Assembly (NCBI RefSeq): GCF_022984075.1
Contig: NZ_JALAAD010000001.1
Span: 2,616,501-2,680,500, forward strand
Direction of reading: 5' to 3'
From: Synechococcus sp. C9
GTDB taxonomy: Bacteria; Cyanobacteriota; Cyanobacteriia; Gloeomargaritales; Gloeomargaritaceae
DNA: 64,000 bases
Under the pieces are notes generated by a model. The model was not told where the DNA came from and did not search any database. It worked only from the letters and a program-made list of their open reading frames with translations. The first letter of the stretch is position 1. Every line of letters begins with the position of its first letter. A program made the translations under genes and the position numbers. Below are positions 5,419-60,549 of the stretch, one piece after another.

Positions 5419-6819
5419 ATGATCATGGCTCGTGTTCCTTGGCTACTCGGCTTAAATACCTTGGGTTTGGTACTTGCCCTGCCGGTATTGGCGCAAACGG
5501 CGGCTGGGGGCGGTGGTGTCAGTGTGACGGGGGTATTGACCCTGGCTTTTTTAACCCTGTTTATCCTGGTGATGTTGCTGGTCGTCCTGAGCCAGATCAT
5601 TTATATTTGTAATCCCAATGAAATTTTGATTTTTTCCGGGCGGGAACACCGGTTGAGTAGTGGTCAAAAAGTTGGGTACCGGGTGGTATTTGGGGGAGCC
5701 TCGATTCGGATTCCCATTATCGAAAGTGTGGACCGGATGGATTTGACCACGATGCCGGTGCAGGTGGAGGTCAAAAACGCCTATTCAGCAGGCGGAATCC
5801 CCCTCCAAATTCAAGCGATTGCCAACATCAAAGTTTCCAGTGCCCCAGCGGTGGTGGGGAATGCGATTGAGCGGTTTTTAGGTCGCAAGCGAGAAGAAAT
5901 TATCCGGGTCGCCAAAGAAACTTTAGAAGGCAATTTACGGGGGGTGGTGGCAACCCTAACCCCAGAGCAGGTGAATGAGGATCGTCTGCAATTTGCCGAC
6001 CGCATTTCCCAATATGTAGAACGGGATTTGTCTAAGTTGGGTTTGCAATTGGACACCCTGAAAATCCAGAGTGTTTCCGATGAAGTGGATTATCTCAATT
6101 CCATTGGACGGCGACAAATTGCCAACATGATTCGGGATGCCAAAATTGCCGAATCCAATGCGGAACGGGAAGCAGAATCCGCCGCCGCTGAGAGTCGTCG
6201 TGCCGCTGAAGTTGCCCAAAAGGAAGCGCAAGCCGCCATTCAACAAAAGCAAAACGAACTCCGCAAGATGCAGGCGGAACTAGAATTGCAGGCACGCTCG
6301 GAGGAGGAACGCACGGAAGCGGTCGCCCAGGAAACCCGAGCCAAGGCGGAACAGGAACTGCAAACGGTACGGGCGGAATTGGAGCGGTTGCGGTTGGAAG
6401 CGGATGTGGTACTCCCGGCGCAAGCCCGACGGCAGGCACAGGAATTGTTAGCCCGGGCGGAGGCGGCTCCCCTAGCGGCGAATGCCAGAGCCACGGCGGC
6501 TGTGACGGATATGCTCAATGACCTGTGGCAAACCTATGGTCAGGATGCCAGTGCCATCTTATTAATTCAACAACTGGAAATGCTGTTGGCTACGGCGGCG
6601 CAGGTGCCCCAAAAGCTAAGTCTCGGTCAGATCAATGTGATTGACACCGGGGATGGGCGGGCATTGTCAACCCTGATGCGGGCGTATCCCGAGATGATCC
6701 AACAGTTCCTCAACCAGGCGGATCAGGTTTTGGGATTGAATTTAGCGGGCACCCTACACACCCCCGGAGCGAGCCAACCCCAAGGCGACCACCAACAGCA
6801 AACAGCCCACGAAGGTTAA
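5419..6819 (+). CDS. Flotillin-like SPFH/Band 7 membrane protein
   Basis: A 466-residue flotillin family protein, expected to scaffold ordered membrane microdomains. It opens with two hydrophobic segments (residues about 6-24 and 36-62), then the SPFH domain (IYICNPNEILIFSGRE..., VEVKNAYSAGGIPLQIQAIANIKVSS), then a long Ala/Glu/Gln coiled-coil stalk (about 240-350) and a flotillin tail (INVIDTGDGRALSTLM). Two in-frame ATGs (5419 and 5425) follow the strong AGAGGGGG site; either could be used. The 3' end overlaps the convergent J-domain gene by 66 bp, an unusually long convergent overlap. Confidence 0.9.
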   Translation: MIMARVPWLLGLNTLGLVLALPVLAQTAAGGGGVSVTGVLTLAFLTLFILVMLLVVLSQIIYICNPNEILIFSGREHRLSSGQKVGYRVVFGGASIRIPIIESVDRMDLTTMPVQVEVKNAYSAGGIPLQIQAIANIKVSSAPAVVGNAIERFLGRKREEIIRVAKETLEGNLRGVVATLTPEQVNEDRLQFADRISQYVERDLSKLGLQLDTLKIQSVSDEVDYLNSIGRRQIANMIRDAKIAESNAEREAESAAAESRRAAEVAQKEAQAAIQQKQNELRKMQAELELQARSEEERTEAVAQETRAKAEQELQTVRAELERLRLEADVVLPAQARRQAQELLARAEAAPLAANARATAAVTDMLNDLWQTYGQDASAILLIQQLEMLLATAAQVPQKLSLGQINVIDTGDGRALSTLMRAYPEMIQQFLNQADQVLGLNLAGTLHTPGASQPQGDHQQQTAHEG

Positions 6820-7164
6820 TCCCAACAGCAATAGGGCGAACAATTCCCCCGGCGAAAGGGGGCGCTCCGTCGGGTCAAGGTAGGCGGAATACATCTGCTG
6901 AATTTGTTGCAAGGTCGGCGCTGGGGGCAGGGTACTTTGCCACAATTGCTGGTCATAATCCGCCCGTTGTTGGGGTGAAATCAAGACCGTGTATGCTGTA
7001 TTGATCTGATGGAATTTTTCCTGGGCAACCGCTATGGGTAGGGTGGTGGTATCCGGGTGATAACGTTTGCTCAACTCCCGATAGGCACGGCGAATGGTCT
7101 CCCCACTGGCAAAACGGGATACCCCCAGAATTTCGTAGTAGTTTGGCTTCGAGGTACCGACCAT
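6754..7164 (-). CDS. Membrane-anchored J-domain (DnaJ-like) protein
   Basis: The first 70 residues are a J domain (NYYEILGVSRFASGETIRRAYRELSKRYHPDT) with the HPD motif that stimulates DnaK ATPase. A short linker and a C-terminal hydrophobic segment (FALLLLGLTFVGCLLLVVALGL) follow. There is no Gly/Phe region or zinc domain, so it is a type III J protein that would bring Hsp70 to a membrane. It converges with the flotillin gene, overlapping its last 66 bp. Confidence 0.9.
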   Translation of the reverse strand: MVGTSKPNYYEILGVSRFASGETIRRAYRELSKRYHPDTTTLPIAVAQEKFHQINTAYTVLISPQQRADYDQQLWQSTLPPAPTLQQIQQMYSAYLDPTERPLSPGELFALLLLGLTFVGCLLLVVALGLARSGGV

Positions 7165-7230
7165 CCCTATTCCCCAGCGTCACCAGGATCACATTTACTA
7201 ATGTATTGTATTTAACCTATCGCTATGGCT

Positions 7231-7671
7231 ATGGCAATCCCAGACCCTATTATGAGACTAACAAGAGGATGAGAACCAGGGCGGGGCGGTGCCCTGCGAC
7301 CCTTGACTTTCTAGGTATTAAATTTTTGCTCACAATTCAAGCGTGATTTTTGTATGGCAATCCCAGACCCTATTATGGGATTAACAAGAGGATGAGAACC
7401 AGGGCGGGGCGGTGCCCTGCGACCTTTGACTTTTTAAGTATTAAATTTTTGCTCACAATTCAAGCGTGATTTTTGTATGGCAATCCCAGAACCTATTATG
7501 GGATGAACAAGAAGATGAGAACCAGGGCGGGGCGGTGCCCTGCGACCCTTGACTTTCTAGGTATTAAATTTTTGCTCACAATTCAAGCGTGATTTTTGTA
7601 TGGCAATCCCAGAGCCTATTATGGGACTAACAAGAGGATGAGAACCAGGGCGGGGCGGTGCCCTGCGACCC
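7231..7671. repeat. 123-bp tandem repeat array, 3.6 copies
   Basis: Units begin at 7231, 7354, 7477 and 7600, an exact 123-bp period, starting with ATGGCAATCCCAGA and containing GAACCAGGGCGGGGCGG. The last copy stops after about 72 bp. Copies differ at only a few positions. Each unit holds an AGGGC/GCCCT hairpin and a TCAC/GTGA inverted pair. Diverged single copies occur near 8521, 34735 and 38660, so this is a dispersed family that has been amplified in tandem here. Confidence 0.9.
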
Positions 7672-7725
7672 CTATTCCATTCTTATTTAGGCTTCCCGTA
7701 CCATACTCCTTGCCAGTTGTGAACA

Positions 7726-8289
7726 TTAACGCTTCTCTATTTTCAGCCATGCAAAAACTTGTTCGGCTGTTAGTTCTAAATGAATTTCCTCGAGTACCTG
7801 AAGCTGGCAACCCCCCCTACAAACATTAGGTTCTTGTTTTGGTGCAAAAATTAGCACAGAATAATCATCTGGATCAAGCATCCACCCCAACCGACACCCA
7901 TGTTTTAGGCAATGTAAAAGGTTATCAATCACACGATTTACCTTTTGCTCAGGGGAAAGAATTTCGATTGACCAATCAGGAGCGGCAATAAAATTATCCT
8001 CTGGCTCTCCCACCTCATTCGTTTGAATTCGGTTCCATGCAATTACTGCTATATCAGGAACAATTGATCGCCCAGCAAAAGTACAGCGCAGTTCGGGTAG
8101 GGCTGTGTATAGTTCACTATGACGATCAATCTCAATCAACAACCGCTTTTGTAAGATAGATTGTCGAGTTTTGGGCATTGGTTTTTGCATAGCCACCCCG
8201 TCCACATATTCCCAGGCGGAGGATTCCTCTATCTGTGGGAGTTTGAGAAATTCCTCAATCGTCAAAATTTGAGTTAGAGAGGCAGTCAC
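7726..8289 (-). CDS. Uma2 family (DUF820) putative endonuclease
   Basis: A 187-residue member of the Uma2/DUF820 family, very abundant in cyanobacteria, with a PD-(D/E)xK-like fold. The family order is visible: TIEEFLKLP, WEYVDGVAMQKPMP, RSIVPDIAVI with the acidic metal-binding residue, and WSIEILSPEQ followed by a basic stretch. Its role in the cell is unknown. It is flanked by repeats on both sides and is not in an operon. Confidence 0.85.
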   Translation of the reverse strand: MTASLTQILTIEEFLKLPQIEESSAWEYVDGVAMQKPMPKTRQSILQKRLLIEIDRHSELYTALPELRCTFAGRSIVPDIAVIAWNRIQTNEVGEPEDNFIAAPDWSIEILSPEQKVNRVIDNLLHCLKHGCRLGWMLDPDDYSVLIFAPKQEPNVCRGGCQLQVLEEIHLELTAEQVFAWLKIEKR

Positions 8290-51548: not shown

Positions 51549-51861
51549 CGTGTGGTGCGAAATTCTAAGGGGTATTTCTATTATGAATCTGATTATGAAT
51601 CTGATGGGAATCTGAACCTATAGCCATTGTACAATCTCAAATTATTTGTCACCGATCTCAAATTAATGTCGTCATACACCCCCTTTGTCCTCATTCATCA
51701 AGAAACATTCCTGACTTAGTTGTGGGAAAGCAGACATACCGGAATTGGTCATGGCATTACTACGCTACGGCATCCTGAAAGATAGCATATCGCCTTTCAC
51801 CCGCTCTGTTTGTTGGAAGGCGGATGCAACTTAAGGCTACACCCACGCAAGTTACACTCAT

Positions 51862-52096: not shown

Positions 52097-52555
52097 TTAG
52101 TCAAACCCCATGCAAATCAGCGTTTCTGGGTCCACATCTGCTAAAGGGTGCCAGTAGTCTTCTAATTTGTCCTTAGAGTGCCAGTAGTCTTCTAATTTGT
52201 CCTTCTCGAAGTAGGGAAGCACACCATTTTCCACCGAGTGGTGCACCGCTTTGAGACGCTTTCGGAATTTCTCGCTCTTCCAACCATATATATCGCATTT
52301 GTCATCAAAAACCACCTCGATGTACCTTTCGAGTAATCCCCTCAAAACCCGCCGGAACGCTTCCTCCCCCTCCGTAGCAAAAGACAGCATATTGAGTAAG
52401 AAATGATCTGAACTCACCCGACAAGTAGCGAGAAAAATCCACATTCCCACCGTTTCTTTCTCCTCATTCGGCAAACTTTCCAGCAACAATCGGCCGGTCT
52501 CACAAGGTGTCAACAAAGTCGTTATACAAGTTTCAGTGCGGGCAAAAATCTTCAT
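52097..52555 (-). CDS. Hypothetical protein with a 10-residue internal duplication
   Basis: 152 residues. SLPNEEKETVGMWIFLATCRVS, EEAFRRVLRGLLERYIEVVFDDK and RKRLKAVHHSVENGVLPYFE make a helical protein not recognised by family. Near the C-terminus KDKLEDYWHS is followed at once by KDKLEDYWHP, from a 30-bp tandem duplication (52149-52208). It begins 53 bp after the Cas12k-like fragment stop, on the same strand, so the two may share a transcript. Confidence 0.65.
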   Translation of the reverse strand: MKIFARTETCITTLLTPCETGRLLLESLPNEEKETVGMWIFLATCRVSSDHFLLNMLSFATEGEEAFRRVLRGLLERYIEVVFDDKCDIYGWKSEKFRKRLKAVHHSVENGVLPYFEKDKLEDYWHSKDKLEDYWHPLADVDPETLICMGFD

Positions 52556-52608
52556 AATACATCCTAAACTGACTTTTCTATTTTAACGAAAAGGAGTTTT
52601 CCCCCGCC

Positions 52609-53223
52609 CTAGTTGCTGAAAAGCGGATGCAACGCAAGCTGGGTTTCCAGCCGCTCAATTTTGATTTCCACTTGCCGCCGTTTCCGCCTGAGTTCGTCCG
52701 TATCTTCCGACTCCGTGGGCACAGTCAAGCGGTGTTTCAGCAAGTAGGCAAAGATAGACCGCTCAACGACATCCTGACATTGTTGGTACACCTGAAACCA
52801 ATTATTAATCTCCCTATGGAGAAGTGCTTGTGCCCGAATTTTCATCTCCTCTAGGGATAAACCCGCATTTTTCGCCAATTCTGCATCCGGTCTGAGGACA
52901 CTCAACCAGGTTTGCTGACCCTGTAACTTTTGCTGTAGTTTCCGCCGTTTTGTTAACCAAGCCTTGTAGGTTTCCTGCACCTGTCGTTGGGCGGAGGCAC
53001 ACCAGCGAGCAGGCAGACCGCTTTGCGCCTGGTTCACTAAATTTTTGACCACCTGGGTAGGCAGTTCCCCGGTAGCTACCCATTGCGGAAAATCTTTGTG
53101 TTGGGAAACTTGTTCCAAGGTGGTGGCAATCAGCGGCGCATAACGACCCGCCATCATCTCCCACACCTGGCGGCGGGTTTCCTCTTCAGCAACCAGACGG
53201 CACTGAATCGTTAACTTAGTCAT
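52609..53223 (-). CDS. Cas12k-like protein, N-terminal third only
   Basis: 204 residues that read like the start of Cas12k, the RNA-guided module of type V-K CRISPR transposons: LTIQCRLVAEEETRRQVW, FPQWVATGELPTQVVKNLV, YKAWLTKRRKLQQKLQGQQTWL, RPDAELAKNAGLSLEEM, SIFAYLLKHRL and KRRQVEIKIERLETQL follow the known Cas12k order. Cas12k has about 640 residues; this ends after the first 200 or so, with a short unrelated tail (ALHPLFSN). The frame has no stops or shifts, so it may be a maintained short protein. The rest of Cas12k and its RuvC-like domain, Tns genes and a CRISPR array are absent nearby. The match is from memory. Confidence 0.72.
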   Translation of the reverse strand: MTKLTIQCRLVAEEETRRQVWEMMAGRYAPLIATTLEQVSQHKDFPQWVATGELPTQVVKNLVNQAQSGLPARWCASAQRQVQETYKAWLTKRRKLQQKLQGQQTWLSVLRPDAELAKNAGLSLEEMKIRAQALLHREINNWFQVYQQCQDVVERSIFAYLLKHRLTVPTESEDTDELRRKRRQVEIKIERLETQLALHPLFSN

Positions 53224-53330
53224 ATATCCATAAGAAGTTGATAATTTAATAATAGCATATCTGTGTTAAAAGTTGTCTAGCCATTGAAAGCACTTCAGGG
53301 TACGATAAAGCCAATCAATACTTGGGAACG

Positions 53331-54152
53331 ATGTTTTTCAGCACGAAGGAGGCGGCGCGCATCACGGGCTGTACCATCCGGCAACTGCAATACTGGCGGA
53401 GTAAGGGGTTGGTCGTGCCAGTAGTGAATCCGGCGGGTACGGGGTACAGTGCGTATTACGACCGGGAAAACCTGGTGAATCTGTCCATCGTGCATTACCT
53501 GTTACAGCGGGGATATGACTTGGCGGCGATAGCGATGTCGTTGGCAGTGTTGCAAAAGCTAGATGCAGGGTATGCCCAGCCGGAACAAGCCCGGCGGTTT
53601 CTGTTGCGGTGGGAGGATGTCCAACAAAAGCTCGTCGTAGAGGAATTTGACCCTCAGAAAGTAGCAGTTTTGATAAAGCAAGGGGTTTTTAGTATGACGG
53701 TCATACCGGTAGATGAGTTACAACGACAAATTCAAACAACGATTGAAAATCCGCAATCGGTTGAGGAGTTGGTCATGGCAAAACTGATGACAGCGGGTTG
53801 GGATAAAAGTCCACATTCCATTACGATTAATGGGGAAATTGTCGCTAAAAATAAAAGTTCATCCACTCGGTCAGGGAGAAAGAATAGAGCAAAAGCTGAT
53901 TATATTCTCAACTATGGTCATCATGGGGCGATTGCTGTGGTGGAGGCGAAATCTGTTTATATGGATGCGGGTGACGGGCTACAGCAAGCGAAAAATTATG
54001 CTGAGATGTTAGAATTACAGTTTGCTTATTCAACTAATGGTATCGGTATTGTTGAATACGATTTTGGTACTAAAATGATAAAGGAGAGGGATGCTTTTCC
54101 TACTCCTGATGAACTGTGGAAAAGACTAGGGGGTATCTCCAATACCAATTGA
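53331..54152 (+). CDS. CvkR-like MerR regulator fused to an HsdR-type nuclease domain
   Basis: Two parts in one frame. Residues 1-140 (numbered from the upstream TTG; start taken at ATG 53331, three codons later) are a MerR-like regulator: FFSTKEAARITGCTIRQLQYWRSKGLVVP, then YDRENLVNLSIVHYLL and RRFLLRWEDVQQKLVVEEFD, resembling CvkR, the repressor of type V-K cas12k genes. Residues about 147-260 match the HsdR N-terminal nuclease of type I enzymes: KADYILN (Asp193), AVVEAKS (Glu208-x-Lys210), then QQAKNYAEML with the QxxxY motif. It diverges from the Cas12k-like gene by about 107 bp, exactly where cvkR lies in complete V-K loci. Confidence 0.8.
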   Translation: MFFSTKEAARITGCTIRQLQYWRSKGLVVPVVNPAGTGYSAYYDRENLVNLSIVHYLLQRGYDLAAIAMSLAVLQKLDAGYAQPEQARRFLLRWEDVQQKLVVEEFDPQKVAVLIKQGVFSMTVIPVDELQRQIQTTIENPQSVEELVMAKLMTAGWDKSPHSITINGEIVAKNKSSSTRSGRKNRAKADYILNYGHHGAIAVVEAKSVYMDAGDGLQQAKNYAEMLELQFAYSTNGIGIVEYDFGTKMIKERDAFPTPDELWKRLGGISNTN

Positions 54153-54345: not shown

Positions 54346-54999
54346 ATGCCGGTAGGCTTGCCTGAATTCGTTGACAACCCTGAAAACCGTTGTCCGGTAG
54401 TGCTTTTACTTGATACATCTGCTTCTATGTCAGGAGCACCCATAACAGAACTAAACAGAGGTGTAACTCTATTCAAAGAGGCGATCCTAGAAGATGCCAA
54501 AGCATCTCTACGGGTAGAAATAGCAATTGTTACGTTTGGCCCCGTTCAGTTAGTTCAAGATTTCGTAACTGTTGAGCGATTTAATCCGCCTAGCTTTACA
54601 GCACAAGACGGAACCCCGATGGGAGAAGCAATTGAATATAGTCTAAATTTGCTAGAAAATCGCAAAGCAACTTATAGAAATAATGGCGTTCAATACTACC
54701 GCCCCTGGGTTTTTTTAATTACAGATGGTGCACCTACGGATGATTGGCAAAACGCCGCTCGTTTGGTCAGGAATGCAGAAGCGGGGAAACGTTTATGTTT
54801 TTTTGCGGTAGCGGTAGAGGGTGCGGATACCCATACTTTGAAACAAATTGCACCGCCAGAGCGTCCACCTGCATTACTACATGGCTTAGATTTTCGGGGC
54901 TTATTCTTATGGCTTAGTAGTTCTTTGTCCAGAGCTTCAAGTGGCAATATTAATGACCCAATTGCCCTACCACCAGTGGGTTGGGGAACAATTACATAG
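54346..54999 (+). CDS. TerY-like von Willebrand factor A protein
   Basis: 217 residues forming a vWA domain with an intact MIDAS: LLLDTSASMSGAPI (DxSxS), DGTPMGEAIEY and FLITDGAPTDDW. The tail (ALLHGLDFRGLFLWLSSSLSRAS) is as in TerY proteins. It is the first gene of a vWA, PP2C, kinase triad known as TerY-P, predicted in stress and defence signalling. The next gene starts 9 bp after the stop codon. Confidence 0.88.
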   Translation: MPVGLPEFVDNPENRCPVVLLLDTSASMSGAPITELNRGVTLFKEAILEDAKASLRVEIAIVTFGPVQLVQDFVTVERFNPPSFTAQDGTPMGEAIEYSLNLLENRKATYRNNGVQYYRPWVFLITDGAPTDDWQNAARLVRNAEAGKRLCFFAVAVEGADTHTLKQIAPPERPPALLHGLDFRGLFLWLSSSLSRASSGNINDPIALPPVGWGTIT

Positions 55000-55007
55000 A
55001 GTTTATT

Positions 55008-55829
55008 ATGTGGAGATATATTGTTCGGTCAGCGATTGGTGTAGCACATCAGCAACTCGGCCTGCCTTGTCAAGACAATGCGGGCTGTTTCGTTAAGGAG
55101 AATTGTCTCATTGGGGTAGTGGCGGATGGTGCAGGAAGTGCAAAATTTGCAGAAATCGGCTCACAGAGTCTCGTCAAAACTACGCTCAAATTTATCAATG
55201 AACATGATCTACACTTCAGCAATAAATTAACCATGTGGCAACTTCTCAACACAGATGTTACCCAATTGCCTAAAGTGTGGAAAGCCAAAACTCCAACTGA
55301 TGAATATGTTAAAACTTTTTTTAGGGATTTGACCGATGAGTGCATAAAAAATTTACGTCAAGAGGCGCAAAAAAACCATTGTGACTTATGCGATTTAGCT
55401 TCTACATTACTGGTTTTTATTGCTCATAAAAAGTGGCTAGTAGCTATGCAAATCGGAGACAGTATTTTGGTAGTTAGAGAGCGGGGAAACCAAGATTATA
55501 AATTGCTATTCAATCCCCAGCGTGGAGAATTTGCCAATGAAACTGTCTTTATTACATCCTCAGAGGCAATTACCAATATGCAAATTATAGTCATGCCTAT
55601 ATCCTGTGATTTTATTTGCGCCGCTAGTGATGGCTTGGAGAGTGTAGCTCTTAGATTCAGTGATTGGATGCCTTTTTCCCCTTTCTTTTCCCCGTTAGAG
55701 GAATACTTGCGGGAAACTGTTGACCCTGACCTAAATGACCAATACATCGTTGATTTTTTGAACTCAGATAGACTCAATGCCCGTACTGATGATGATAAAA
55801 CCTTATTAATCGCAATCAGTTATGAATAG
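55008..55829 (+). CDS. PP2C-type protein phosphatase of a TerY-P triad
   Basis: 273 residues. The metal-binding aspartates are in GVVADGAGSAKFAEIGS and ICAASDGLESVAL, with MQIGDSILVVRERG between, as in PP2C/PPM phosphatases. The ATG at 55008 is preferred to the in-frame start at 54981, which lies inside the vWA gene. It overlaps the kinase gene by 8 bp (ATG within the last codons). In the triad it would remove phosphates placed by the kinase. Confidence 0.9.
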   Translation: MWRYIVRSAIGVAHQQLGLPCQDNAGCFVKENCLIGVVADGAGSAKFAEIGSQSLVKTTLKFINEHDLHFSNKLTMWQLLNTDVTQLPKVWKAKTPTDEYVKTFFRDLTDECIKNLRQEAQKNHCDLCDLASTLLVFIAHKKWLVAMQIGDSILVVRERGNQDYKLLFNPQRGEFANETVFITSSEAITNMQIIVMPISCDFICAASDGLESVALRFSDWMPFSPFFSPLEEYLRETVDPDLNDQYIVDFLNSDRLNARTDDDKTLLIAISYE

Positions 55830-58800
55830 ATTAATTGAAGTACAAACCCATCGTTCTATTGAATTAACGAAGCAAATAGCTTCAAGTGGTGAAGGTTCCG
55901 TTTGGCGGACAAATTGTTCTGGACTGCTTGCCAAAGTATATCATCAGCCCTCTGTTGAACGTATCCAAAAACTAGAGGTAATGCTCAAAAATCCGCCTGA
56001 AGAAATGTTAGCTAATATAGGGCATACATCTTATGCTTGGCCGGTAGCAATTTTAGAAAATGAGAAGGGTCAACGAGTTGGTTTTTTAATGCCAGAAATC
56101 AAGCAGGGACGACAGTTAACTGAGATATATAATCCATCCTTGCGAAAGCGATTAAAGCTAGAGGTTGATTGGAAATTTTTACATACTACTGCTTATAATT
56201 TTGCATTATTGATGGAATCAATTCATAAAGCAGGCTATGTCATTGGGGATGTCAAGCCGGAAAATATTTTGGTAAATCCCCAAGCATTGCCATCAATTAT
56301 TGACACAGATTCATTTCAAGTAAGTGATCCTGAAGGGCATATTTACCGCTGTCCTGTTGGGTCAGAAGGCTTTACTCCGCCTGAATTAATTGGTAAGAAT
56401 TTCAAAGAAATAGACCAGACGGAAGTGCATGACCGCTTTCGTTTAGGGGTTATCGCCTTTACTTTATTATTTGGCTATGAGCCTTTTAAGGGAGTTTGGA
56501 AGGGCGGTGGGGAACCTCCTGAACTTAACGAGTGGGTCAGACATAATTATTGGCCGTACAGTGGTAATGGGAAGGTAGGTTTAGCCGACTATATGATGCC
56601 TTTAGATATAGTGCATCCAGAACTACAGAACTTATTTTTACGTTGTTTCAATGATGGATACTCTGTTCCTGCGATGCGTCCTAGTGCCAGGGAATGGAGG
56701 CTAACATTAGGAATGGCAATTGCCGAGTTACAAGTATGTGGTGTAGTAGAAACCCACCTCTATCACCGTGGAAATTCATCTTGTTGTTGGTGCGAAAGGA
56801 CAGCAAAAGGGCTTCCAGATGTATTTCTATTCAAGAGAACTGTTCTCGCAGTTATTTCTCAGCCTGAACAAAAGCCTGCAACTTTATCCCATCCCAGTAA
56901 CAAAACTCTTGTAACCGTATCTCATCACACTAATAAAACCACAAATAAAAACAATCAATTTTCTTCTAAAAAAGGTATGCTTATATTTTTATTTAGCATT
57001 GCAGTTTGTGGGTTTATATCATTACTTCCAAAATATTATTCTCGAGTTACTACTACCACCTCTAGCGAATCTAGCGAAATTCGTGATGCTTCCTACTATC
57101 ACAATCAAGGAACAATTAAATATTTACACCAAGACTATCTAGGGGCGATAGTCGACTTCAATCAAGCCATTCAACTTAACCCCAACGACCCCTTCTTCTA
57201 CTACGACCGGGGGAAGGCTAAATACGAACTCAAAGATTATCAAGGGGCAATAGCCGACTATACTCAAGCTATTGAAATCTACCCTGATTTTCTCGGTGCT
57301 TACCACCTTCGGGGAAAGGCTAAATATGAACTCAAAGACTATCACGGGGCGGTAGCCGACTACAATCAGGCTATTAGCCTCAGTTCTAGTGATCCCGATG
57401 TCTATGATGCCAATGTCTACTACGACCGGGGGAAGGCTAAATATGAACTCAAAGATTATCAAGGGGCGATAGCAGACTATACTCAAGCTATTGGAATCAA
57501 TCCTAATGATGCCGATACCTATAACAAGCGGGGGCTTGCTAAATACGAACTCAAAGATTATCAAGGGGCAATAGCAGATTACAATCAGGCTATTAGCCTC
57601 GATCCTAATGATGCCGATGCCTACACCAAACGGGGGAATGCTAAATACGAACTCAAGGACTATCCAGGGGCAATAGCAGATTACAATCAGGCTATTAGCC
57701 TCAATCCTAATGATGCCGATACCTACTACAAGCGGGGGAATGCTAAATATGAACTCAAAGATTATCAAGGGGCGGTAGCAGACTATACTCAAGCTATTGG
57801 AATCAATCCTAATGATGCCGATACCTACTACAAGCGGGGGCTTGCTAAATATGAACTCAAAGATTATCAAGGGGCAATAGCAGATTACAATCAGGCTATT
57901 AGCCTCGATCCTAATGATGCCGATGCCTACACCAAACGGGGGAATGCTAAATACGAACTCAAGGACTATCCAGGGGCAGTAGCCGACTACGATCAGGCTA
58001 TTAGCCTCAATCCTAATGATGCTGATGCCTATAACAAGCGGGGGCTTGCTAAATACGAACTCAAAGACTATCAAGGAGAGATAGAAGACTATAATCAAGC
58101 CATTAAAATCAACCCTAATCATGCTAATGCCTATAACAATCGGGGGCTTGTTAAAATTTTTTCCGATGATCGTTCAGGTGGATGTACTGATTTATCACGA
58201 GCGATAGATTTGGGTTCCAAACTGGCATCCAGAAACTATCAAAAATATTGTCGTTATTATGCTGGTGCCTACAACAAGCGGGGGCTTGTTAACCATGAAC
58301 CCAAGGACTATCAAGGGAGAACACAAGACGATACTCAAGCTATTAGCATCAACTCTATTGATGCCAATGCCTACACCAAACAGGGGAATGCTAAATATGA
58401 ACTCGGAGACTATCGAGGGGCAATAGCGGACTACAATCGAGCTATTGGAATCAATCCTAATAATGCTAATGCCTACAACAATCGGGGACTTGCTAAACAT
58501 GAACTCAAAGATTATCAAGGGGCAATAGCAGACTACACTCAAGCTATTAGAATCAATCCTAATGATGCTGATGCCTACAACAAGCGGGGGCTGGCTAAAC
58601 AAAAAATCCGAAACTATCAAGGGGCAATAGCAGACTACACTCAAGCTATTAGAATCAATCCTAATGATGCTAATGCCTACAACAATCGGGGGAATGCTAA
58701 AATTGAACTCCGAGATTATCAAGGGGCAATAGCGGACTACAATCGAGCTATTGGAATCAATCCTAATTATGCCTATGCCTACTACAATCGGGGGAATGCT

Positions 58801-59415
58801 AAAATTGAACTCCGAGATTATCAAGGGGCAATAGCGGACTACAATCGAGCTATTGGAATCAATCCTAATGATGCTAATGCCTACTACAACCGGGGGCTTG
58901 CCAAATATGAACTCCGAGGCTATCAAGGGGCAATAGCAGACTACACTCAAGCTATTAGAATCAATCCTAATGATGCTGATGCCTACACCAAGCGGGGGCT
59001 GGCCAAACAAAAAATCCGAAACTATCGAGGGGCAATAGCAGACTACAATCGAGCCATTAAAATCAATCCTAATGATGCTAATGCCTATATCAATCGGGGG
59101 CTTGCTAAAATTGAACTCCGAGATTATCAAGGGGCGGTAGCGGACTACAATCGAGCTATTAAAATCAATCCTAATGATGCTAATGCCTATATCAATCGGG
59201 GGCTTGCTAAAATTGAACTCCGAGATTATCAAGGGGCGGTAGCGGACTACAATCGAGCTATTAAAATCAATCCTAATGATGCTAATGCCTATATCAATCG
59301 GGGGCTTGCTAAAATTGATTCCAATGATCGTTCAGATGGATGTGCTGATTTATCACGGGCGATAGATTTGGGTTCCGAAGTGGCATCCAGAAACTATCAA
59401 GAATATTGTCGTTAA
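55822..59415 (+). CDS. Protein kinase-like protein with about 22 TPRs (TerY-P triad)
   Basis: 1197 residues. Kinase fold: ASSGEGSVWRT, Lys in LLAKVYH, GDVKPENILV in place of HRDxKxxN, and IDTDSFQV for the metal Asp. SSCCWCERT after it resembles part of a zinc ribbon, common in this triad. A membrane segment follows (MLIFLFSIAVCGFISLL, about 389-405), then about 22 TPRs of the type AxAYNNRGLAKYELKDYQGAIADYTQAIxINPN. The array is a doubled block: repeats 1-11 and 12-22 each end in a cap, RSGGCTDLSRAIDLGSKLAS and RSDGCADLSRAIDLGSEVAS. The TPRs would lie on the other side of the membrane and bind partners. Confidence 0.88.
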   Translation: MNRLIEVQTHRSIELTKQIASSGEGSVWRTNCSGLLAKVYHQPSVERIQKLEVMLKNPPEEMLANIGHTSYAWPVAILENEKGQRVGFLMPEIKQGRQLTEIYNPSLRKRLKLEVDWKFLHTTAYNFALLMESIHKAGYVIGDVKPENILVNPQALPSIIDTDSFQVSDPEGHIYRCPVGSEGFTPPELIGKNFKEIDQTEVHDRFRLGVIAFTLLFGYEPFKGVWKGGGEPPELNEWVRHNYWPYSGNGKVGLADYMMPLDIVHPELQNLFLRCFNDGYSVPAMRPSAREWRLTLGMAIAELQVCGVVETHLYHRGNSSCCWCERTAKGLPDVFLFKRTVLAVISQPEQKPATLSHPSNKTLVTVSHHTNKTTNKNNQFSSKKGMLIFLFSIAVCGFISLLPKYYSRVTTTTSSESSEIRDASYYHNQGTIKYLHQDYLGAIVDFNQAIQLNPNDPFFYYDRGKAKYELKDYQGAIADYTQAIEIYPDFLGAYHLRGKAKYELKDYHGAVADYNQAISLSSSDPDVYDANVYYDRGKAKYELKDYQGAIADYTQAIGINPNDADTYNKRGLAKYELKDYQGAIADYNQAISLDPNDADAYTKRGNAKYELKDYPGAIADYNQAISLNPNDADTYYKRGNAKYELKDYQGAVADYTQAIGINPNDADTYYKRGLAKYELKDYQGAIADYNQAISLDPNDADAYTKRGNAKYELKDYPGAVADYDQAISLNPNDADAYNKRGLAKYELKDYQGEIEDYNQAIKINPNHANAYNNRGLVKIFSDDRSGGCTDLSRAIDLGSKLASRNYQKYCRYYAGAYNKRGLVNHEPKDYQGRTQDDTQAISINSIDANAYTKQGNAKYELGDYRGAIADYNRAIGINPNNANAYNNRGLAKHELKDYQGAIADYTQAIRINPNDADAYNKRGLAKQKIRNYQGAIADYTQAIRINPNDANAYNNRGNAKIELRDYQGAIADYNRAIGINPNYAYAYYNRGNAKIELRDYQGAIADYNRAIGINPNDANAYYNRGLAKYELRGYQGAIADYTQAIRINPNDADAYTKRGLAKQKIRNYRGAIADYNRAIKINPNDANAYINRGLAKIELRDYQGAVADYNRAIKINPNDANAYINRGLAKIELRDYQGAVADYNRAIKINPNDANAYINRGLAKIDSNDRSDGCADLSRAIDLGSEVASRNYQEYCR
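57085..59400 (+). repeat. 102-bp coding repeats of the TPR array
   Basis: DNA copies of the 34-codon TPR are very alike (GACTATCAAGGGGCAATAGC and TCAATCCTAATGATGC recur in most units), with shorter or longer units only at the caps and repeat 4. Adjacent units are often identical over 60 bases or more, suggesting recent expansion or gene conversion. On the reverse strand the same repeats leave two long stop-free frames that are artefacts. Confidence 0.9.
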
Positions 59416-59588: not shown

Positions 59589-60549
59589 TATAGTCATTTT
59601 TAATAAAAATGCAACATTTTATGAGAAGAGGGTGTAAGATAGAAGAGAAGTAGGAATTAAGGAGAAGAATCAGGATGTGTTACAGTCTGGATTTACGGAA
59701 AAAGGTGATAAGTTTCATTGAGAACGGGAATAGTATCACGAAAGCGGCGCGAATCTTCGGCATCAACCGAGCAACCGTGTACCGGTGGCTAGACAGACCC
59801 AATCTGGAGCGCACGAGAGTAGTGAGAAGGAAGAGGAAAATCGATATTGCCAGACTGAATCAAGATGTGGAGAAATACCCCGATAAGACTCTTCAGCAAA
59901 GAGCACAAGAGTTTGGGGTAGTGCCAAGCTCAATATATTATCAATTGAAGCGGCTAAATATCACGAGAAAAAAAACAGTTTCGCTATCGAGAAAGAAATC
60001 ATTCCGATAGAATATTACACTACCGGACATTGAGAGAATTAATCAAGAAGTATGGGATAGAAAGTCTGCTATTTATTGATGAGACGGGCTTTGAGAGGTT
60101 CGTCAGTCTGATTTATGGTTGGGCTAAACGGGGAAAAAAGATTTATGGAGAGCGTCAGGGACGGCGGTATAAACGAGAGAATCTCGTAGCGGGTCGGCGC
60201 AAACATAGCAAGGATTTAATTGCTCCCATGCTATTTGACGGCAGTTTAGATGCGGTGACTTTTGAGCGATGGTTAGAGGTGCATTTATTACCAGCATTGA
60301 CGAGACTATCGGTGTTAATTTTGGACAACGCACCGATTCATCGTAAGAAACGCATTCGAGAATTAGTGGAAGCGGCGGGGCATATCGTATTATTTTTGCC
60401 AACTTATTCCCCAGACCTCAATGACATTGAGCATGACTTTAGCGCATTAAAAAAATTGAGGATGTACGCTCCCCCTGGTACCACCATTGATGAAGTCATT
60501 CGTAATTATTGCGCAAGTTAGTGTCGCATTCTAAACCGAAATGACTATA
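59589..60549 (+). mobile_element. IS630 family insertion sequence, apparently intact
   Basis: About 961 bp. Left end TATAGTCATTT (59589), 9 bp later ATGCAACA; the right end on the other strand gives TATAGTCATTT, 9 bp, ATGCGACA, ending at 60549. TA is at each outer edge. It lies between the TerY-P triad and the methyltransferase gene. Its ends differ from those of the IS630 at 24.6 kb. Confidence 0.88.
59675..60521 (+). CDS. IS630 transposase expressed by +1 frameshift at an A8 run
   Basis: ORF A (59675-60010) has the two helix-turn-helix parts (ITKAARIFGINRATVYRWLD; VVPSSIYYQLKRLNITRKK). ORF B, in the +1 frame, continues as KKQFRYRERNHSDRILHYRTLRE and carries the DDE triad: LFIDETGFE, LILDNAPIH and DLNDIEHDF. 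The frames join at eight A (59968-59975) followed by C, the same place and sequence type as in the other IS630 here. The joined product is about 280 aa, the usual size, with no other defects, so it may be active. Confidence 0.88.

Follow-up and report, generated by a model that had tools for sequence, protein, structure and literature searches.

The window (the whole 64,000-bp stretch analysed, positions 2616501-2680500 of the 2.96-Mb genome of a Gloeomargarita-like cyanobacterium) holds the decayed right end of a V-K CAST, whose regulator is best read as a conserved variant of CvkR that carries a type I restriction nuclease domain and probably represses the transposon. Sequence comparison shows that related genomes keep this nuclease-bearing CvkR fusion and that it originated more than once.

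A CvkR repressor fused to an HsdR nuclease domain

The fusion gene (P0002, 53331-54152, + strand) encodes 273 aa from a conserved ATG, or 276 aa from an alternative TTG at 53322. Its frame matched MerR_1, and residues 2-137 matched CvkR (Alr3614; PDB 7xn2, E 2.5e-18) over the whole length; the CvkR part (residues 1-140, 53331-53750, + strand) is complete and is a MerR winged-helix homologue of Alr3614, divergent from cas12k with a gap of 107 bp. Residues 145-268 (53763-54134, + strand) form an N-terminal PD-(D/E)xK nuclease domain of HsdR, EcoAI type, with matches across residues 145-267 to NF046051 (E 4e-29) and PDB 3h1t (E 3e-23) and the motif D190...E205-A-K207...Q219-AKN-Y223. The original prediction, a MerR regulator of CvkR type joined in frame to a nuclease domain with the D...ExK...QxxxY of HsdR, was borne out by these matches, as was the divergent arrangement of two frames 107 bp apart (52609-53223, - strand; 53331-54152, + strand).

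The closest known relative of the first part is CvkR (Alr3614) of AnCAST from Anabaena PCC 7120 (Ziemann et al. 2023, PMC9938897), likewise a MerR-type regulator divergent from cas12k in a V-K CAST. Its repression of cas12k and tnsB is established by experiment, and Alr3614 is the only CvkR for which dimerisation and this repression are known. The window protein differs in its added C-terminal nuclease domain and in its operator, which in Gloeomargarita is not the canonical AnnACATnATGTnnT. The second part shares its N-terminal nuclease domain and D...ExK...QxxxY with the EcoAI/FtnUII-family type I restriction subunit R (NF046051; 3h1t) and is ~50% identical to the nearest cyanobacterial HsdR. 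Unlike that family, the window fusion ends after the nuclease domain and lacks the superfamily 2 motor, the C-terminal region and adjoining hsdM/hsdS partners. No hsdR motor remnants were found downstream of or beside the short fusions. An AlphaFold2 model built on a three-row alignment reached pLDDT 40, too low for a useful structure.

Conservation and selection in Gloeomargarita

The fusion is not unique to this genome. The same-genus genome OV696605.1 (identical to G005) carries it at two loci, L010 and L011; full-length identity to P0002 is 89% for one copy and 78% for the other. Parallel fusions occur in other lineages. Both OV696605.1 fusions adjoin a full-length cas12k (601 aa), one locus with an array of 13-14 repeats and the other with four repeats. 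The three Gloeomargarita loci are homologous at the DNA level up to a common point, where the nuclease domain ends, and the cargo beyond it differs. The dN/dS analysis indicated purifying selection on the nuclease domain, with values of 0.15-0.18 in all three pairs, compared with 0.15-0.27 for CvkR and 0.14 for the pair of intact cas12k genes. In the short copy of VI4D9-A, the Tyr of QxxxY is replaced by Cys (Y223C).

The three Gloeomargarita elements (L010, L011 and the window) are mosaics: the window cas12k-cvkR spacer and tnsB resemble those of L010, and the window fusion gene resembles that of L011.

Recurrence of the fusion across cyanobacteria

The loci came from fusion queries against 390 genomes from the class and 342 from a single order, so the fusion counts that follow are not frequencies. 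CvkR joined to a full-length HsdR (940-1069 aa) was found in G217, G343, G388, G527, G454 and G585; most of these fusions sit in CASTs, several with adjoining hsdM and hsdS. Unfused cvkR and hsdR lie as neighbours, ~13-180 nt apart, in seven further loci. The nuclease-only form is known from five loci in three lineages: Gloeomargarita, G258 (299 aa, beside a cas12k cut to 63 codons) and G434 (292 aa, beside an intact cas12k of 628 aa). All five short proteins end 7-11 residues past F[PH]TPxxL, the motif that closes the nuclease domain, while the few other truncated HsdR frames in the compared loci end 76 to 379 residues past it. D, ExK and Q are retained in every one of the five. The fusion was not found in plasmid and viral collections, and the five short-form loci showed no shared partner or immunity gene.

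The full-length relatives of the G258 and G434 short forms have a PRK11448-type HsdR, from which these two short forms derive, whereas the Gloeomargarita nuclease is of EcoAI type. A single origin of all fusions was rejected by the nuclease-domain tree (AU p 1e-88), which rules it out for that domain; it was not rejected by the CvkR tree (p 0.128). In both trees the closest neighbour of G258 is the full-length G217.

Further variants were seen in this sample. In G454, one locus (L088, G454:C1:1556000-1572000) encodes at 5972-7900, next to an intact cas12k, a CvkR fusion of 642 aa that combines an EcoAI-type nuclease with a shortened motor; another (L087) encodes a 1018-aa fusion with no cas12k nearby. 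In G258, the 63-codon cas12k fragment (L084:6853-7122) is directly followed by transposon-end-like repeats and sequence reading as a tRNA gene; this is a second, independent loss of cas12k beside an intact nuclease-only CvkR fusion.

A dead V-K CAST

The locus is the right end of a 20,591-bp V-K CAST, in agreement with the predicted derivation from a V-K system. The right terminal repeat, TGTACAATCTCAAATT, lies at 51628-51643 and has an inverted copy at L052:8704-8719 (window-equivalent 72203-72218). It is flanked by a 5-bp target-site duplication, GCCAT (51623-51627), whose other copy is beside the left end beyond the window (L052:8720-8724). Just outside the element, a likely homing protospacer (51575-51601, + strand) matches the last VI4D9-A spacer (L011:11255-11289) at 26 of 27 nt (blastn-short); it is preceded by GGTA at 51571-51574 and is ~54 bp from the insertion point. 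Natural V-K insertions are mostly explained by att-targeting guides (PMC11406308). The left end, beyond the window in L052, carries TniQ (164 aa), TnsC (273 aa) and a frameshifted TnsB. The transposase had been described as lost, because the window edge cut the element; its genes are at the other end, just past that edge.

The element shares with V-K CASTs the order tnsB-tnsC-tniQ-cargo-cvkR/cas12k-array, the 5-bp target duplication and the homing spacer, and differs in being inactivated. The tnsB gene is frameshifted in all three Gloeomargarita elements, at different positions. The predicted loss of the guide array was confirmed: in the window only two repeat remnants are left, one at 51794-51831 (- strand, ~89% to VI4D9 repeats) and one at the cut end of cas12k; L011 still has an array, one spacer of which matches the insertion site. 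A search for a tracrRNA gave no Rfam match in L011:9500-11600, and the corresponding region is deleted in the window. As only codons 1-197 of Cas12k remain in the window, the locus was classed as a CAST remnant and not as a working CAST.

The cargo beside the fusion (54346-59415) encodes a VWA-domain protein and a PP2C phosphatase (both by Pfam), together with a third protein, apparently a kinase, whose gene has ~19 TPR-like units of 102 bp in tandem; this trio may be a defence or signalling module. At 59589-60549, two frames that read as a split IS630-type transposase lie between 28-nt inverted repeats. Between the two CRISPR-repeat remnants there is a 152-aa frame of unknown family (52097-52555), which contains a tandem duplication of 30 bp (52145-52204).

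The Cas12k fragment is deletion debris

The 204-codon frame divergent from the fusion (P0001, 52609-53223, - strand) had been taken for the first third of Cas12k. This held for residues 1-197, which matched Cas12k in NCBIfam (NF038191, E 5e-54), PADLOC (6e-54) and PDB 7n3o/8axa (E 1e-33), but not for the last 7-8 residues and the stop, which are encoded by a CRISPR repeat (52598-52633, - strand, 97% to L010:10481-10516) abutting the cut end of the gene. Against the syntenic L011, DNA identity is 93% from 54127 down to 52633, where it ends at cas12k codon 197. The 5' fragment of cas12k (codons 1-197, 52633-53223, - strand) thus runs into a CRISPR repeat at codon 198, which indicates that the rest of the gene, including the RuvC part that had been described as missing, was removed by deletion together with most of the array. 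Changes specific to the window copy number N=10 and S=4 in the cas12k fragment versus N=9.5 and S=15.5 in the fusion (Fisher p 0.05-0.10, by rounding), which is suggestive, though not proof, of relaxed selection on the fragment.

The original prediction also allowed for a short Cas12k conserved together with the fusion, in which the Cas12k part would sense or bind nucleic acid. The co-occurrence fails: in the relatives that share the fusion cas12k is full-length, and in the window the gene breaks off precisely at a CRISPR repeat. Nucleic-acid sensing found no support. A short Cas12k as a functional module was ruled out on these grounds and by the different length of the G258 fragment.

Operators

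A candidate operator, AATAGCATATCTGTGTT, was read by eye at 53251-53267 (+ strand), and a similar sequence, AATAGCGTATGTGTTTT, which matches it at 14/17 positions, is located just 5' of tnsB within this element. The canonical CvkR operator was absent from the Gloeomargarita cas12k-cvkR promoter, the best window match having 3 mismatches, no better than in shuffles. Seven loci with a fused CvkR, among them the G258 and G434 short forms, do have the canonical motif in their cas12k-cvkR spacer, with 0-1 mismatch. Judging by these matches, it is widespread but not universal in the family.

Function of the nuclease domain

Most likely, from the sequence evidence, the fusion is a repressor of cas12k and tnsB carrying a relic, still constrained nuclease domain. 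In V-K CASTs, cvkR is often followed directly by a type I restriction-modification operon; without its stop codon, cvkR would have become fused to hsdR, and replacement of the HsdR motor part by other cargo would then have left CvkR with the nuclease domain. The fusion would dimerise via CvkR, bind operators in the cvkR-cas12k spacer and in front of tnsB, and repress the transposon. The nuclease domain, presumably folded and with its catalytic residues kept, is without the motor and partners that normally trigger HsdR, and so probably adds DNA contact or stability, with at most conditional cutting near the bound sites. Because its targets in this genome are dead (cas12k cut, tnsB frameshifted, array gone), the fusion is left without a working transposon of its own to control.

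This reading is favoured by the identities of the CvkR and nuclease parts, the same fusion beside full-length cas12k, the low dN/dS and the window-specific changes, the joint of cas12k to a CRISPR repeat, the CAST ends, target duplication and homing spacer, the cvkR-hsdR neighbours, the full-length fusions with hsdM/hsdS in CASTs, the canonical operators elsewhere and the repression known from Anabaena. Several points count against it. A domain attached to a repressor that is itself needed can have a low dN/dS simply because it must fold. The Gloeomargarita promoter lacks the canonical motif, and the candidate operator is diverged and read by eye. Y223C in VI4D9-A hints at tolerance for a weakened nuclease, the structure has pLDDT 40, and the five short-form loci come from three lineages only.

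A less probable reading, which we consider doubtful, is that the nuclease of the short fusions is active and selected: CvkR dimers would bring a pair of PD-(D/E)xK domains to the operators, with cutting under some condition and a possible role against phage, in competition between CAST copies or in addiction to the element. Such a nuclease would account for the purifying selection, for the D, ExK and Q kept in three lineages with ends 7-11 residues past the same nuclease-end motif, and for a gene that stays open beside a truncated cas12k in two lineages (the window; G258, 63 codons). However, tied to a repressor it would threaten its own operator, and HsdR nucleases normally depend on the motor and methyltransferase. 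No gene for a partner or for immunity was seen to be shared by the five loci, and one copy has Y223C. Equally doubtful is the broader form of this idea, that nuclease-only CvkR fusions are recurrent, selected site-directed nucleases in which the repressor carries a restriction nuclease to its operators, at least three cyanobacterial lineages having independently trimmed HsdR at the same domain boundary and kept the product after transposon death.

That the fusion is instead a purely neutral leftover, with cvkR running by chance into a piece of hsdR in a decayed locus and the nuclease part functionless, is improbable. With its cas12k cut, its tnsB frameshifted and its array lost, the element in this genome is indeed dead, and fusions arise easily because cvkR and hsdR often lie next to each other. 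The same fusion with intact catalytic D and ExK is nevertheless found at two other loci beside intact cas12k, dN/dS is 0.15-0.18 and independent parallels have the same end point; this conservation already weakens the neutral account. Of the "decayed locus with a lucky fusion" in the original prediction, decay thus fits the Cas12k part, but not the fusion, which is common to two other loci and has parallels elsewhere.

TnsA is a PD-(D/E)xK enzyme too. It is highly improbable that the nuclease domain stands in for the TnsA missing from V-K CASTs, which transpose replicatively (PMC11406308), and helps to free the transposon from cointegrates: CvkR would position the nuclease at the left end, close to the tnsB promoter, but most CvkRs are unfused, full-length fusions occur in ordinary type I operons with hsdM and hsdS, and tnsB is frameshifted in all three Gloeomargarita elements.

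Relation to known fusions and significance

CvkR-HsdR fusions are already known. Four, located in CASTs and combining CvkR with an hsdR restriction domain, were mentioned in 2023 in the main text of PMC9938897, which states that there is no evidence for cooperation between restriction and CAST systems; some of these four may be the same proteins as ours. The nuclease-only form, its recurrence in three lineages and its common end point appear to be new: they are absent from that main text, and no description of a compact nuclease-only CvkR fusion in three lineages was found in the searchable literature that included it.

The close neighbourhood of cvkR and a type I restriction operon in V-K CASTs is a possible source of CvkR-HsdR fusions, and in several lineages the fused enzyme has been trimmed to the nuclease domain alone. 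An inactive nuclease would make the locus a clear record of a CAST that dies with its regulator intact. If the nuclease is active, CAST control and DNA cleavage would be combined in one protein, which would bear on the restraint of these transposons and on the use of CvkR-controlled systems.
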